The translations under genes were made by a program, and so were the position numbers. From contig NZ_MKVV01000083.1 in NCBI RefSeq assembly GCF_001899645.1, positions 62,001 to 126,000 on the forward strand: 64,000 nucleotides of DNA, read 5' to 3'. The DNA comes from Pseudonocardia sp. 73-21. GTDB taxonomy: Bacteria; Actinomycetota; Actinomycetes; Mycobacteriales; Pseudonocardiaceae. The stretch's first letter is position 1; every line of letters starts with the position of its first letter. Below the pieces are notes generated by a model. The model made no database searches and had not been told where the DNA came from. It worked only from the letters and a program-made list of their open reading frames with translations. Shown here piece by piece: positions 6,168 through 10,679 of this stretch.

Positions 6168-6388
6168 GACGCGGTACCACCGCCTGACCAGGGCGTTCGT
6201 CGCCACCTGTGGACAACTCGTGATCATCGCTCGACCGGCCCAGCGCGTGCACCACGGTCGGCGACCGCCGTCACCCGTCCGGGCCGGAACCTCAGGGGGA
6301 TCTCCGGGCGTTCCCTGAGGGAGCCCGCCGCTGCGACAGGCAGAGTGGACCTCAGCGGCGAGACGCGCCGCACCGGAAGGAGCCCTTG

Positions 6389-6574
6389 GTGGCATCGACA
6401 CTGACCCGCGCCCGCGACGGGAAGGTCATCGCCGGCGTCTGCGCCGGACTCGCGCAGCGTTTCGGCCTGAGCACCGGACTGGTCCGGTTCCTCTTCCTGA
6501 TCTCCTGCCTGCTGCCCGGGCCGCAGTTCATCATCTACATCGTGCTGTGGATCATCATGCCCAAGCAGCGTTGA
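6389..6574 (+). CDS. PspC domain protein
   Basis: A 61-residue single PspC domain: RDGKVIAGVCAGLAQRFGLS, then a hydrophobic helix (LVRFLFLISCLLPGPQFIIYIVLWIIMP). Small stand-alone PspC proteins are membrane proteins linked to envelope stress, but this one has no pspA beside it. GTG 6389 is preferred, with AAGGAG 6 nt upstream; TTG 6386 is too close to that site. Its TGA overlaps the TTG of the amidohydrolase, suggesting coupled translation. Confidence 0.85.
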   Translation: MASTLTRARDGKVIAGVCAGLAQRFGLSTGLVRFLFLISCLLPGPQFIIYIVLWIIMPKQR

Positions 6575-8094
6575 TCCGCAGGATCCTCGTGGGCGTCCGG
6601 GTCCTCGACCCGGACGCCCCCTCGGGCTCGCTGGCCCTCGAGATCACCGGCGACCGCGTCACCTCCGTCGGTCCGGTGGCGGCGGCCCGCACCGACGGTG
6701 CGGAGGTCCACGACCTCGACGGCGCCGTGGTCACCCCGGCCTTCGTCGACGCCCACGTCCACGCCACGTCGACGGGCCTGCTCGTCGACGGCCTCGACCT
6801 CACCGGCTGCGCCGATCCCCGCACGCTGCTCGACGCCGTCGCCGCCCGCGCCACGGCCCGGCCCGGTGCCCTGATCTGGGGGCACGGCTGGCAGGAGCTC
6901 GGCTGGCCGCACCTGCCGTCCCGCGCCGAGATCGACCGTGCCGCGGCCGGCGCCCCGGTCTACCTCAGCCGCATCGACGTCCACTCCGCGCTGGTCTCCA
7001 CCGGCCTGCTCGACCGGGCCCCGGGCGCGGTCGGGGCCACCGGCTGGTCGGACGGGACCCTGTCCGCCGACGCCCACCACCACGTCCGCCGCGCCGCGCT
7101 GGCCGCTGTCGACGGCACCGTCCGTGCGGCCGCCCAGCGGGCCTTCCTGCGCGACGCCGCGGCCCGCGGGGTCGCCGTCGTGCATGAGTGCGCGGGCCCG
7201 GACATCTCCTCGGCCGTCGACCTGGCGGCCCTGCGCACCCTCGACGGGCCGGAGGTCGTCGGGTACTGGGGGCAGGCCGTGCGCGACGTCGACGAGGCCC
7301 GCGACCTGCTCGCCGCCACCGGCGCCCACGGGCTGGCGGGCGACCTGTTCGTCGACGGCTCGGTCGGCTCGCGCACCGCCGCCCTCCGCGACGCCTACAC
7401 CGACGCGCCCGGCTGCACCGGCAACCGCTACCTCGACGCCGACGCCGTCGGCGCCCACATCACCGCGTGCACGCTCGCCGGCGTCCAGGCCGGGTTCCAC
7501 GTGATCGGCGACGCGGCCGCCGACACCCTCACCCAGGGCCTGCGGATCGCCGCGACCGCCACCTCGGTCCAGGCTCTGCGCACACGGACGCACCGGGTCG
7601 AGCACCTCGAGATGGTCGACGCCGAACAGCGTGCCGTCCTCGCGGAGCTCGGCGTCGTCGCGAGCGTCCAGCCGGTGTTCGACGCCCTGTGGGGCGGTCC
7701 GTCCGGGATGTACGCGGAGCGGCTGGGCGTGAGCCGTGCGGCGCCCATGAACCCGCTGGCTGCTCTCGCCGGAGCAGGGGTCACCCTCGCGCTGGGCTCG
7801 GACTCCCCGGTCACCCCCGTCGGCCCCTGGGCCGCCGTCCGGGCCGCCGTCGAGCACCGCACGCCGGGCTCCGGGATCACCCGCGAGGCGGCGGTCGCGG
7901 CCCACACCGTCGGCGGCCACCGCGCCGCCGGCGACCACTCGGCCACGGCCGGTCGGCTCGTCGTCGGCGCCCCCGCGTCGTACGCGGTCTGGGACGGCGC
8001 CGGTGACCCCGCGCCCCGGTGCCTCCTCACCGTGCACCGGGGCACGACCCTCCACAGTGTCCGGAGCGGCGGTGTGGCATCATCTCGCACGTGA
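6571..8094 (+). CDS. YtcJ-like amidohydrolase
   Basis: A protein of about 507 residues of the amidohydrolase superfamily, YtcJ subgroup. Visible motifs are the HxH metal site (FVDAHVHATSTG), GHGWQELGWP, FVDGSVGSRTAAL, FHVIGDAAADT, HRVEHLEMV and the final Asp in ALGSDSPV. It probably hydrolyses an amide, urea or imide; the substrate is unknown. TTG 6571 overlaps the pspC stop; GTG 6589, with AGGA 5 nt upstream, is a plausible alternative start. The stop codon overlaps the GTG of the Cys-rich leader ORF. Confidence 0.8.
   Translation: MIRRILVGVRVLDPDAPSGSLALEITGDRVTSVGPVAAARTDGAEVHDLDGAVVTPAFVDAHVHATSTGLLVDGLDLTGCADPRTLLDAVAARATARPGALIWGHGWQELGWPHLPSRAEIDRAAAGAPVYLSRIDVHSALVSTGLLDRAPGAVGATGWSDGTLSADAHHHVRRAALAAVDGTVRAAAQRAFLRDAAARGVAVVHECAGPDISSAVDLAALRTLDGPEVVGYWGQAVRDVDEARDLLAATGAHGLAGDLFVDGSVGSRTAALRDAYTDAPGCTGNRYLDADAVGAHITACTLAGVQAGFHVIGDAAADTLTQGLRIAATATSVQALRTRTHRVEHLEMVDAEQRAVLAELGVVASVQPVFDALWGGPSGMYAERLGVSRAAPMNPLAALAGAGVTLALGSDSPVTPVGPWAAVRAAVEHRTPGSGITREAAVAAHTVGGHRAAGDHSATAGRLVVGAPASYAVWDGAGDPAPRCLLTVHRGTTLHSVRSGGVASSRT
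8078..8083 (+). promoter_or_regulatory. possible -10 element before the Cys-rich ORF
   Basis: CATCAT (one base off TANNNT) ends 7 nt before GTG 8091, the spacing seen at other leaderless genes here. It lies inside the end of the amidohydrolase gene. Confidence 0.35.
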
Positions 8095-8162
8095 CGACGC
8101 GGACCAGCGGTGCAGGCGTGGCCTGTCGCTGTCCGGGGTGCTGTCGCTGCTGTCGCAGCTGA
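8091..8162 (+). CDS. Cys-rich leader ORF (possible cysteine attenuator)
   Basis: A 23-residue ORF starting with GTG and ending CRCPGCCRCCRS-stop: six cysteine codons among its last twelve residues. No Shine-Dalgarno precedes it, which would fit a leaderless mRNA. A hairpin (8133-8169; CCGGGGT/ACCCCCGG plus GCTG/CAGC) covers the last Cys codons and the stop, so a ribosome stalled on Cys codons would open it. Mycobacteria use leaderless polycysteine uORFs as cysteine-responsive attenuators; this looks like the same device. The next gene starts 53 nt after the stop. Function is inferred only from layout; the CTGTCGCTG repetition could also produce Cys codons by chance. Confidence 0.5.
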   Translation: MTTRTSGAGVACRCPGCCRCCRS

Positions 8163-8215
8163 CCCCCGGCCCCGTCCATCCTGCCGCCCCGCGGCCCGCA
8201 CGTCTGCGAATTTTC

Positions 8216-9031
8216 ATGATCACGCCCGATCTCCGTGGCCACACCGTCCTCGCGCTGCACGCCCACCCCGACGACGAGTCGATCTTCACGGGCATCACGC
8301 TGCGCCGGCTCGCCGAGGCCGGAGCGCGCACCGTGCTCGTCGTCGCGACGGCGGGGGAGCTGGGGGAGTCCCGGGTGCCCCTGCAGGTCGGCGAGACCGT
8401 CCCCGAGCGCCGCGTCGCCGAGCTGGAACGCGCCGCCGAGCTGCTGGGGGTCTCCCGGCTCGTCCTGCTGGGCCACCGCGACTCCGGACTGCCCGGCTGG
8501 CCCAGCGGCCACCACGCCCGCGCGTTCTCCGCGGCCGACCCCGTGCGTCTGGCCCGCACCGTCGCCGAGCTCGCCGACGACGAGGGCGCCGGCACCCTCA
8601 TCCACGACGACGAGCACGGCATCTACGGCCACCCCGACCACCGGGCCGCCCACCGCATCGGCGCCACCGCGGCCGATCTGGTCGGCGCCACCGCGTACCG
8701 GATGACCGTCGACCGCGAGCACCTGCACGTCTCCGCACGCGACCGGCACCTCGTGCACGGCGCCGCCCGCGCCGCGGACGTCGCGTTCGGCCGGGTCACG
8801 GCCGAGATCACCCTGGCCGTGGGCGGGACGGCCGAGCACCTGGCGTGCAAGCGGGCGGCGATCGAGGCGCACGCGAGCCAGGTCGATCCCGCGACGCTCC
8901 CGGCGGAGCACTTCGCGGCGGCCTACGGCTACGAGTGGTACCGCAGGACGGGCGCGCCGGGCGTGGTGGACGCCCTGGGCAACGCCCACCTCGTGTCCCA
9001 CGCCTCGACGAGCGGCACCCTCGTCGGATAG
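8216..9031 (+). CDS. PIG-L/LmbE family deacetylase (mycothiol-type)
   Basis: A 271-residue protein with the zinc-site motif LHAHPDDESIFTG at residues 12-24, LLGHRDSGLPGW in the middle and GIYGHPDHRAAH for the third metal ligand. The family includes MshB (GlcNAc-inositol deacetylase in mycothiol synthesis) and Mca (mycothiol S-conjugate amidase), as well as other N-deacetylases; length and the GHRDSG motif are compatible, but the exact role is not settled. ATG 8216 is the first start that leaves the family N-terminus intact. The Cys-rich ORF just upstream supports a link to thiol metabolism. The last codons (SGTLVG-stop) lie inside a dispersed palindrome. Confidence 0.82.
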   Translation: MITPDLRGHTVLALHAHPDDESIFTGITLRRLAEAGARTVLVVATAGELGESRVPLQVGETVPERRVAELERAAELLGVSRLVLLGHRDSGLPGWPSGHHARAFSAADPVRLARTVAELADDEGAGTLIHDDEHGIYGHPDHRAAHRIGATAADLVGATAYRMTVDREHLHVSARDRHLVHGAARAADVAFGRVTAEITLAVGGTAEHLACKRAAIEAHASQVDPATLPAEHFAAAYGYEWYRRTGAPGVVDALGNAHLVSHASTSGTLVG

Positions 9032-9065: not shown

Positions 9066-10679
9066 GTGGCCCGTCGTACTCTTTCCCCCGTGGTCCTTCC
9101 CGACGTCGAACCGTCCGTGTCCGATCCGCCCCGATCATCCGGACGGGCGTCCTGGGGACTGCTGCTCACCCGGTCGGTGGCCGCCCTCGGCGGAGGGCTG
9201 CTGCTCTACTACAGCTTCCCCCCGCGGACGCTGTGGTGGCTCGCGATCCCGGCGTTCGCCCTGCTCGGGCTGGCCGTGTACGGCCGCCGGGCGCACGCGG
9301 GCTTCGGCTACGGGTTCCTGTTCGGGATGGGCTTCCTGCTGCCGCTGCTGACGTGGATCGGCGCGCTCGTCGGGCCGGTGCCGTGGGTGGCGCTGGTGGT
9401 GCTGGAGTCGCTGTTCGTGGGGCTCGCCGGGGCCGGCATGGCGCTGGTCTCCCGGCTCCCGGCCGCGCCCGTGTGGGCCGCCGCCGTGTGGAGCGCGGGG
9501 GAGTCGCTGCGCGGGCGGGTGCCGTTCGGTGGCCTGCCGTGGGGCCGCGTCGGGTTCGGCCAGCCGTCCGGTCCGCTGCTGCCCGTGGCGTCGATCGGCG
9601 GGGTGCCGCTGCTGTCGTTCGTCACGGTGCTGGCCGGGCTGGCCCTGGGCGAGCTGGCGCGCCGGTTGTTCCTCCGCGAGCTGCGGCCGCTGCTCGTGCC
9701 GGCCGTGATCGGCGTCGTGGCCATGCTCACCGGCCCGCTCGCGCTGCTGGTGCCGGCCACCGGCGGCGGGCCCGCGAAGTACGTCACCATCGCCGCCGTG
9801 CAGGGCAACGTGCCGCGCCTGGGCCTGGACTTCAACGCCCAGCGCCGCGCCGTGCTCGACAACCACGTCAACGAGACGATCAAGCTGGCCGACGAGGTGG
9901 CCGCCGGGAAGGTCGCGAAGCCCGACATCGTGATCTGGCCGGAGAACTCCAGCGACATCGACCCCCTGCAGAACCCCGACGCCGCCGCGCAGATCGACCG
10001 CGCCGCGCAGGCCGTCGGCGTGCCGATCCTGGTCGGGGCGGTGCTGCGCAACCCCGACGGCGTCACCACCAGCAACTCGGCCCTGGTGTGGCTGGGCGGC
10101 CAGGGGGTGGTGGAGCGGGCCGACAAGCGCCGCGTGCAGCCCTTCGGCGAGTACATGCCCTGGCGGTCGTTCTTCGCGATGTTCTCCTCCTACGTCGCCC
10201 GGGCCGGCTACTTCGTGCCCGGCAACGGCCCCGGCGTGGTCACCATGGACGGCGTGAAGGTCGGCGTCACGATCTGCTGGGAGGTGGCGTTCGACGACCT
10301 CGTCGAGGACAGTGTGGACAACGGCGCGCAGGTGCTCGCCGTGCCCAGCAACAACGCCACGTTCGGCTTCACGGAGATGACCTACCAGCAGCTCGCGATG
10401 TCGCAGGTCCGGTCGGTGGAGCACGATCGCGCATCGATCGTCGCCACCACGAGCGGGGTCAGCGCCACGATATCGCCGGACGGTACGGTCACTCAGAGCA
10501 CGAAACAGTTCACGCCGGACGTGCTCGTCGAACGCACACCGCTGCTCGACACCACCACTCTGGCCACGCGCCTGGGAGCCGTACCCGAGTGGGTGCTGGT
10601 CGCGTTGGGGGTGGGAGCGGTCGGCGCGGTCATCGTGACGCGTAGGCGTGACAGGAAGGACGAGGACAAGAATGGCTGA
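9066..10679 (+). CDS. lnt: apolipoprotein N-acyltransferase
   Basis: A 537-residue protein with an N-terminal multi-helix membrane region (about 1-225) and a C-terminal nitrilase-like domain. The catalytic triad is visible: Glu in IWPENSSD, Lys in ADKRRVQPFGEY and Cys in VTICWEVAFDD. It adds the third acyl chain to lipoproteins in the cytoplasmic membrane. GTG 9066, with GGAAG 5 nt upstream, is preferred over GTG 9090. It overlaps the Ppm gene by 8 nt; in mycobacteria the two activities are fused or interacting, so the pair probably works together. Confidence 0.93.
   Translation: MARRTLSPVVLPDVEPSVSDPPRSSGRASWGLLLTRSVAALGGGLLLYYSFPPRTLWWLAIPAFALLGLAVYGRRAHAGFGYGFLFGMGFLLPLLTWIGALVGPVPWVALVVLESLFVGLAGAGMALVSRLPAAPVWAAAVWSAGESLRGRVPFGGLPWGRVGFGQPSGPLLPVASIGGVPLLSFVTVLAGLALGELARRLFLRELRPLLVPAVIGVVAMLTGPLALLVPATGGGPAKYVTIAAVQGNVPRLGLDFNAQRRAVLDNHVNETIKLADEVAAGKVAKPDIVIWPENSSDIDPLQNPDAAAQIDRAAQAVGVPILVGAVLRNPDGVTTSNSALVWLGGQGVVERADKRRVQPFGEYMPWRSFFAMFSSYVARAGYFVPGNGPGVVTMDGVKVGVTICWEVAFDDLVEDSVDNGAQVLAVPSNNATFGFTEMTYQQLAMSQVRSVEHDRASIVATTSGVSATISPDGTVTQSTKQFTPDVLVERTPLLDTTTLATRLGAVPEWVLVALGVGAVGAVIVTRRRDRKDEDKNG

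Follow-up and report, generated by a model that had tools for sequence, protein, structure and literature searches.

In attenuators of the mycobacterial type, a tract of Cys codons forms part of the RNA structure by which the start of the downstream gene is controlled. In mycobacteria, according to work attributed to Canestrari et al. in 2020, cysteine starvation reportedly raises expression by freeing that next start. Two papers describe leaderless open reading frames (ORFs) of Mycobacterium smegmatis with Cys runs that regulate downstream genes by cysteine-dependent attenuation (PMC9031893, PMC9094748), and a further paper proposes polycysteine leaderless ORFs as regulators in mycobacteria (PMC4633059). 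Candidate Cys leader peptides have also been placed before cbs of Bifidobacterium longum and before cys operons in both Mycobacterium and Propionibacterium acnes (PMC1262725). Here we describe a leader ORF with a run of Cys codons upstream of a PIG-L (LmbE-type) deacetylase gene in Pseudonocardia sp. 73-21, located in a stretch of 64,000 nucleotides (nt), hereafter the window (contig NZ_MKVV01000083.1, positions 62,001 to 126,000). The leader is conserved at the Pseudonocardia loci examined, and we consider it probable that it senses cysteine and controls the PIG-L gene by attenuation.

The polycysteine leader and its conservation

The window leader runs from a GTG start to a TGA stop at positions 8091 to 8162 of the plus strand, on which all leader, spacer, and segment coordinates below also lie, and would encode a leaderless-type product of 23 residues, VTTRTSGAGVACRCPGCCRCCRS. 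Its six Cys codons (codons 12, 14, 17, 18, 20, and 21) fall in a tract spanning codons 12 to 22 (8124 to 8156), and four of them are TGT. The PIG-L gene (8216 to 9031, plus strand, 271 residues; PF02585 E value 2.5e-23) begins with an ATG at 8216. A sequence-only reading of the window had described this arrangement, a GTG-initiated ORF of 23 residues with six Cys codons followed 53 nt after its stop by a PIG-L gene, and both elements were borne out. Upstream lies a promoter-like element, TGTGG-CATCAT (8073 to 8083), with its −10-like hexamer at 8078 to 8083 and the GTG 7 nt further on.

Orthologous loci were collected from named genome contigs (57 loci; the distant relatives L044-L065 were excluded) and from 60 Pseudonocardia genomes (30 + 26 matches). 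Merging duplicates of one genome in the two collections left 60 anchored records, of which five were set aside, three because a contig end cuts their upstream region (L025, L031, and L120) and two because they come from other genera (L041 and L042); L121, which had no anchor, was also dropped. Leaders were located by a rule combining a [CT]A...T box 6 to 8 nt before an ATG or GTG with an ORF of 12 to 60 codons, Cys content being used only as a tie-break, which was never needed. A short ORF with in-frame Cys codons was found upstream of the PIG-L gene at all 55 orthologous Pseudonocardia loci for which sufficient upstream sequence was available, 53 of them detected by the rule and the remaining two by hand. 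The −10-like box lies 6 to 8 nt 5′ of the leader start at 53 of the 55 loci, and the variants GAGCAT (L010) and GACCAT (L014) were also seen. From the position of this box we infer that the transcript would start at or next to the GTG, an architecture of the leaderless type.

The leaders are 19 to 38 residues long, with GTG (51) or ATG (4) starts and TGA (53) or TAG (2) stops, and carry two to eight Cys codons each, at least three at 52 of the 55 loci. The tract of the main clade reads CCPGCCRCC, with variants, and that of the P. ammonioxydans/P. parietis clade CCCRPGPCPRG, CRCRRG, or similar. One more leader, besides the 55, was read in genome G029. Comparison of orthologous loci had been proposed by the sequence-only reading, with absence of the ORF or of its Cys codons counting against it. 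No locus lacking either was encountered among the 55, although three are down to two Cys codons, and Cys is kept while codons drift. Specifically, TGT and TGC interchange at tract positions 3, 6, and 7 (19/18, 16/13, and 20/8 among the 55 leaders), which indicates that Cys is retained while the bases change synonymously. TGY triplets occur 295 times in the leader frame, compared with 30 and 13 times in the alternative frames. When the window leader body was dinucleotide-shuffled 5000 times, 8 shuffles gave at least six in-frame Cys codons without a stop, and conservation is a far stronger argument against chance than this test.

A sequence profile of the leader was searched in 60 genomes (36 from Pseudonocardia and 24 from other families), with stricter filters because the set exceeded 40 genomes. 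The 36 Pseudonocardia genomes gave 29 matches with E < 1e-10, all beside the PIG-L gene, and the best E value in the 24 genomes of other families was 4.1e-5. Seven Pseudonocardia genomes had no strong match: four (G001, G002, G014, and G027) have diverged leaders, which are counted among the 55, and in the other three (G006, G021, and G028) the locus is cut or incomplete. About 100 weak matches, from Pseudonocardia genomes as well as others, had E values between 2e-5 and 0.01; the seven that were read contained no complete leader, six showing nothing leader-like and one, in G006 (L237), a leader-like start cut off at the contig end. The leader and the PIG-L gene stand in a different gene setting in P. 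acaciae (L033), where none of the other five genes of the window locus was found in the 3-kb flanks. The leader thus seems to belong to the PIG-L gene, because the strong profile matches all lie beside that gene and the pair persists in the P. acaciae setting.

In the window, an amidohydrolase gene (6547 to 8094; PF07969, Amidohydro_3) ends in a stop codon that the leader GTG overlaps; a PspC-like gene (6386 to 6574) also lies upstream, and lnt (9066 to 10679; TIGR00546) lies downstream of the PIG-L gene. At several loci (e.g., L011, L034, L037, and L043) no amidohydrolase gene was found, and the first gene matched upstream of the leader is the PspC-like one. These loci still have the leader and the promoter-like box, which suggests that the leader has a promoter of its own.

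Within the Pseudonocardia sp. 73-21 genome, 900 or 1000 nt upstream of each domain match (8 PIG-L, 16 PALP, 2 PAPS-reductase, 4 sulfite/nitrite-reductase, and 17 rhodanese) were scanned, and the sulfite reductase operon was also inspected by hand. In these upstream regions, a short ORF with clustered Cys codons and the promoter arrangement was found only at the locus studied here; Cys-rich short ORFs without that arrangement occur at four other loci (L145, L147, L195, and L197). The sulfite reductase operon has a different leaderless-type leader, MPALMLRLVARRHVDLNRVSSALCRQP (L182:5009-5092, contig C48), which contains a single Cys and whose ATG is preceded at 6 nt by a TGGCACGCT box; it presumably resembles the RHVDLxRVSSALCR-type leaders of other actinobacteria. 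Outside Pseudonocardia, two genomes of another genus with PIG-L genes at 54 to 55% identity show starts of the Shine-Dalgarno (SD) type, the scan found no Cys-rich ORF there, and both genes follow a P450-like gene, as labeled from a reading of the translated flank. None was seen in Geodermatophilus (L042) either, and an Actinomycetales metagenome-assembled genome (L041) has a short ORF with three Cys codons.

Predicted alternative pairings of the Cys codon tract

The Cys tract can be paired with sequences on either side of it. Segment 1 (CGGAC CAGCGGTG, 8100 to 8112), in the 5′ part of the leader, is complementary to the tract, as judged from an RNAalifold consensus and from stems in individual sequences. 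Segment 2 (GTCCGGGG, 8131 to 8138) falls within the Cys-Pro-Gly codons and could partner either segment 1 or segment 3 (ACCCCCGG, 8162 to 8169), which is situated at and directly 3′ of the leader stop. Segments 2 and 3 pair in a predicted hairpin at 8133 to 8169 (CCGGGG at 8133 to 8138 with CCCCGG at 8164 to 8169; −22.5 kcal/mol, z −2.78, a stability reached by 3 of 200 shuffles), and in this the hairpin that the sequence-only reading had drawn over the Cys codons was recovered. The 160 nt from the GTG into the gene are of ordinary stability (z −0.71; 58 of 200 shuffles as good). At 43 of the 55 loci, segments 2 and 3 can form a stem of 14 or more units, the observed mean being 16.6 versus 14.7 shuffled.

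For the pairing of segments 1 and 2, the RNAalifold consensus of 35 sequences joins codons 3 to 5 (CGGAC) to the Cys-Pro stretch (GTCCG), and clade-specific stems recur, such as CCGGGAC:GTCCCGG in L013 and CCGACGAC:GTCGTCGG in L036. The mean 1:2 pairing was 16.9 (16.88) versus 14.3 (sd 0.42) with shuffled partners, a value that 0 of 300 shuffles reached. The best evidence for this pairing comes from the order of the synonymous Cys codons, since that comparison is made within sequences. TGT and TGC were permuted among the Cys codons of each leader, 52 of the 55 leaders being usable after three with identical Cys codons were dropped. Of the 52, 46 showed stronger pairing between the 5′ segment and the tract in the actual order than in permuted order, and 4 showed weaker pairing (mean −1.74 kcal/mol); the fold of the whole leader was likewise better in 46 and worse in 4. 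TGT makes up 182 of the 295 leader Cys codons (62%) versus 32 of 431 (7%) in matched parts of six locus genes, the PIG-L gene included (Fisher p 4.5e-58, which is nominal, since the sequences are related), and all 43 leaders with a Cys-Pro-Gly-like motif use TGT for its Cys. The pairing data support a model in which segment 2 would have two mutually exclusive partners, segment 1 or segment 3, in the manner of an attenuator.

Several observations weigh against this model or against attenuation as a whole. The RNAalifold covariation term is −0.04, with a two-sided change in one of nine pairs. With partners taken from other species, 1:2 pairing averages 16.39 (sd 0.24, maximum 17.05), so that own partners are only slightly stronger, and main-clade segment 1 has a mean of 17.6 with ammonioxydans-type segment 2 versus 16.2 with its own. 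The window leader gains nothing from its TGT order (−18.6 versus −18.95 permuted and −19.4 all-TGC), and compared with all-TGC versions, the actual leaders as a whole fold better in 33 of 52 cases and worse in 19. When the tract was masked, compared with a ribosome at the stop, the PIG-L start region became easier to open at 28 of 55 loci and harder at 16, a weakly supportive difference (p 0.02, uncorrected for kinship), and in the window it was nearly unchanged (5.8 versus 6.2 kcal/mol). An intrinsic terminator was also rejected, the window stretch having no terminator-like site; three leaders have only two Cys codons; and the statistical tests pool related sequences.

Other elements between leader and gene were also considered. 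An element reading GCACGTCTGCGA (8198 to 8209), directly 5′ of the PIG-L start, is well conserved in alignment A1, and in several relatives (e.g., L022 and L027) it extends as TCACCTC; the GATCACCTC within this extended form resembles the 3′ end of 16S rRNA, and no function emerged for the element. Pairing of the leader end with the pre-gene element (TCGCAG:CTGCGA) is weakly supported and is absent in the VIDRTGPALRGCC group; in the codon-order test, the tract paired with the pre-gene element better in 31 and worse in 20 of 52 leaders (p 0.046). A pairing noticed by eye between the leader start GTGATCG and a pre-gene CGATCAC fails where the start is GTGACGG or ATGACGG. The possibility that PIG-L is extended at its N terminus by reading the leader region in an alternative frame (VLSLLSQLT...) was discarded too, a stop closing that frame before the gene in L015. 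Rfam gave no match at E 1 within 7900 to 8400, and a known RNA family was rejected.

Probable attenuation and competing explanations

In the mechanism we propose, transcription would start at or next to the GTG, as the −10-like box suggests, and ribosomes would load directly on the 5′ end and translate the short ORF into its terminal run of Cys codons. With ample Cys-tRNA, the ribosome would pass the tract and leave, segment 2 would fold with segment 1 or segment 3, and PIG-L expression would be low. With scarce Cys-tRNA, the ribosome would stall on the tract, cover segment 2, and block both folds, and PIG-L would be expressed. As the final step, either the start region may open or Rho may be escaped. 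By analogy with mycobacteria, low cysteine would be the on state.

The same sensor might, as a possible variant compatible with this mechanism that we hold only tentatively, be read out by Rho-dependent termination in the spacer, the position of the ribosome on the leader setting whether Rho loads before polymerase reaches the PIG-L gene. The window spacer (8163 to 8215, 53 nt) has 28 C and 12 G, which ranks it among the most extreme 0.33% of 54-nt stretches on both strands of the window, and contains a small conserved hairpin, GCCGC...GCGGC (8183 to 8195), with four pairs in the RNAalifold consensus of 35 sequences and five in the window fold. Spacers measure 51 to 64 nt at 41 of the 55 loci and 68 to 117 nt at the other 14, given the start-codon rule used; C exceeds G in 55 of 55 (mean C/G 2.1), and a motif search found an SD motif in 0 of 55. 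A spacer of this C-rich kind would suit Rho, as would the lack of SD motifs and of a terminator-like site, and a role for Rho has been put forward as a weak prediction for the cys leaders of mycobacteria (PMC1262725). However, C-richness is no proof of a rut site, and a stall at the first Cys codons exposes most of the spacer, which leaves the sign of control ambiguous. The distance, near 58 nt, argues against a simple form of stop-start coupling.

It is unlikely that the leader senses something other than cysteine supply, as a nascent-peptide or general translation sensor in which thiol, metal, or redox state would cause arrest. In favor of such a sensor, most leaders have Pro-Gly directly after a Cys, but the tract is more variable than would be expected for a classical arrest peptide, and the Cys codons appear to be its most constant part. 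Still less probable is a function of the Cys-rich product as such, which would then be a small metal- or redox-binding protein and merely an operon partner of PIG-L. The CCPGCCRCC-like sequence is indeed well conserved in the main clade, but the number and order of Cys residues vary (two to eight, with ammonioxydans-type CCCRPGPCPRG or CRCRRG), and synonymous codon order tracks RNA pairing, which speaks for the RNA rather than the peptide. The 23-residue peptide also has no Pfam match at E 0.001 and no NCBIfam match at E 1, a result that weighs little, short peptides being hard to match. Finally, a degenerate Cys-run DNA pattern occurs at 8 places in the genome versus 10 for a reversed control, so that such runs are not rare, but the occurrence of the leader at 55 of 55 loci, its frame, start context, and codon bias, and the fact that it stays with the gene where the neighborhood differs indicate that it is not chance, and a fortuitous ORF in a GC-rich spacer is hardly credible.

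The PIG-L gene product and comparison with known systems

The gene downstream of the leader belongs to the PIG-L superfamily (PF02585 score 83.4 bits versus a cut-off of 28.2). Like MshB and Mca, its product has the HPDDE, DSG, and HxDH motifs, the residues of which are invariant in the 16 proteins of alignment A2. We take the HPDDE and HxDH residues to be zinc ligands, on the model of MshB, and the product is likely an active hydrolase, because these zinc-site motif residues are retained. The sequence-only reading had linked the gene to mycothiol through MshB and Mca, a link that now looks weaker. Unlike MshB and Mca, the protein falls far below both equivalog cut-offs (TIGR03445, 99.3 versus 224.35 bits; TIGR03446, 78.5 versus 277.15 bits), and the same genome has MshB (282.3 bits) and Mca (487.4 bits) as separate genes, plus another relative. 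No such leader was seen within about 900 to 1000 nt upstream of MshB, Mca, or the inspected cysteine-synthesis matches. The closest sequence match in the PDB is MshB (E 4e-13). In a tree of 33 proteins, 12 Pseudonocardia orthologues group together, next to the two other-genus genes mentioned above. Of the earlier proposal that a cysteine attenuator feeds back on thiol metabolism, the leaderless-type polycysteine leader is supported; feedback on thiol metabolism is only a possibility.

A more speculative and rather doubtful extension is that the PIG-L gene specifies a third mycothiol-type amidase/deacetylase, turned on when Cys-tRNA is short and freeing cysteine from mycothiol or a related store, and that the switch is wired through synonymous Cys codon choice, with the rare TGT at pairing positions, such that one tract would serve as both sensor and structural switch. 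If true, the leader would flag an unrecognized thiol enzyme across the Pseudonocardia genomes examined. More generally, the leader would extend cysteine-codon leaders to another actinobacterial genus, would tie an uncharacterized PIG-L family to cysteine supply and so give a lead on its substrate, and would provide a case of a rare synonymous codon seemingly chosen for RNA pairing inside a sensing tract.

In the literature searched, most subscription papers being outside reach, we found no paper linking a polycysteine leader to PIG-L or mycothiol, and no earlier report of occurrence in Pseudonocardia, of a PIG-L target, or of a connection between synonymous Cys codon order and pairing. Like classical amino-acid attenuators such as the trp leader, the Pseudonocardia leader has control codons in an RNA segment with alternative partners; unlike in them, there is no U-run terminator, and the control codons lie in or after segment 2 rather than in segment 1. 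Leaders with Cys runs are already known from mycobacteria, and others have been predicted for P. acnes and B. longum. The cys and cbs leaders of PMC1262725 share with ours a short ORF, a Cys run near the stop, the absence of a terminator hairpin, and consideration of Rho; they differ in that the tract here is complementary to both the 5′ end and the sequence after the stop, and in the target gene. The closest system is that of the mycobacterial polycysteine leaderless ORFs. Whereas the targets named there are cysteine-related genes such as cysA2, and the presumed target here is a PIG-L deacetylase gene, the two have in common a leaderless-type start, a short ORF, a Cys cluster near the stop, and a position upstream of a possible target.
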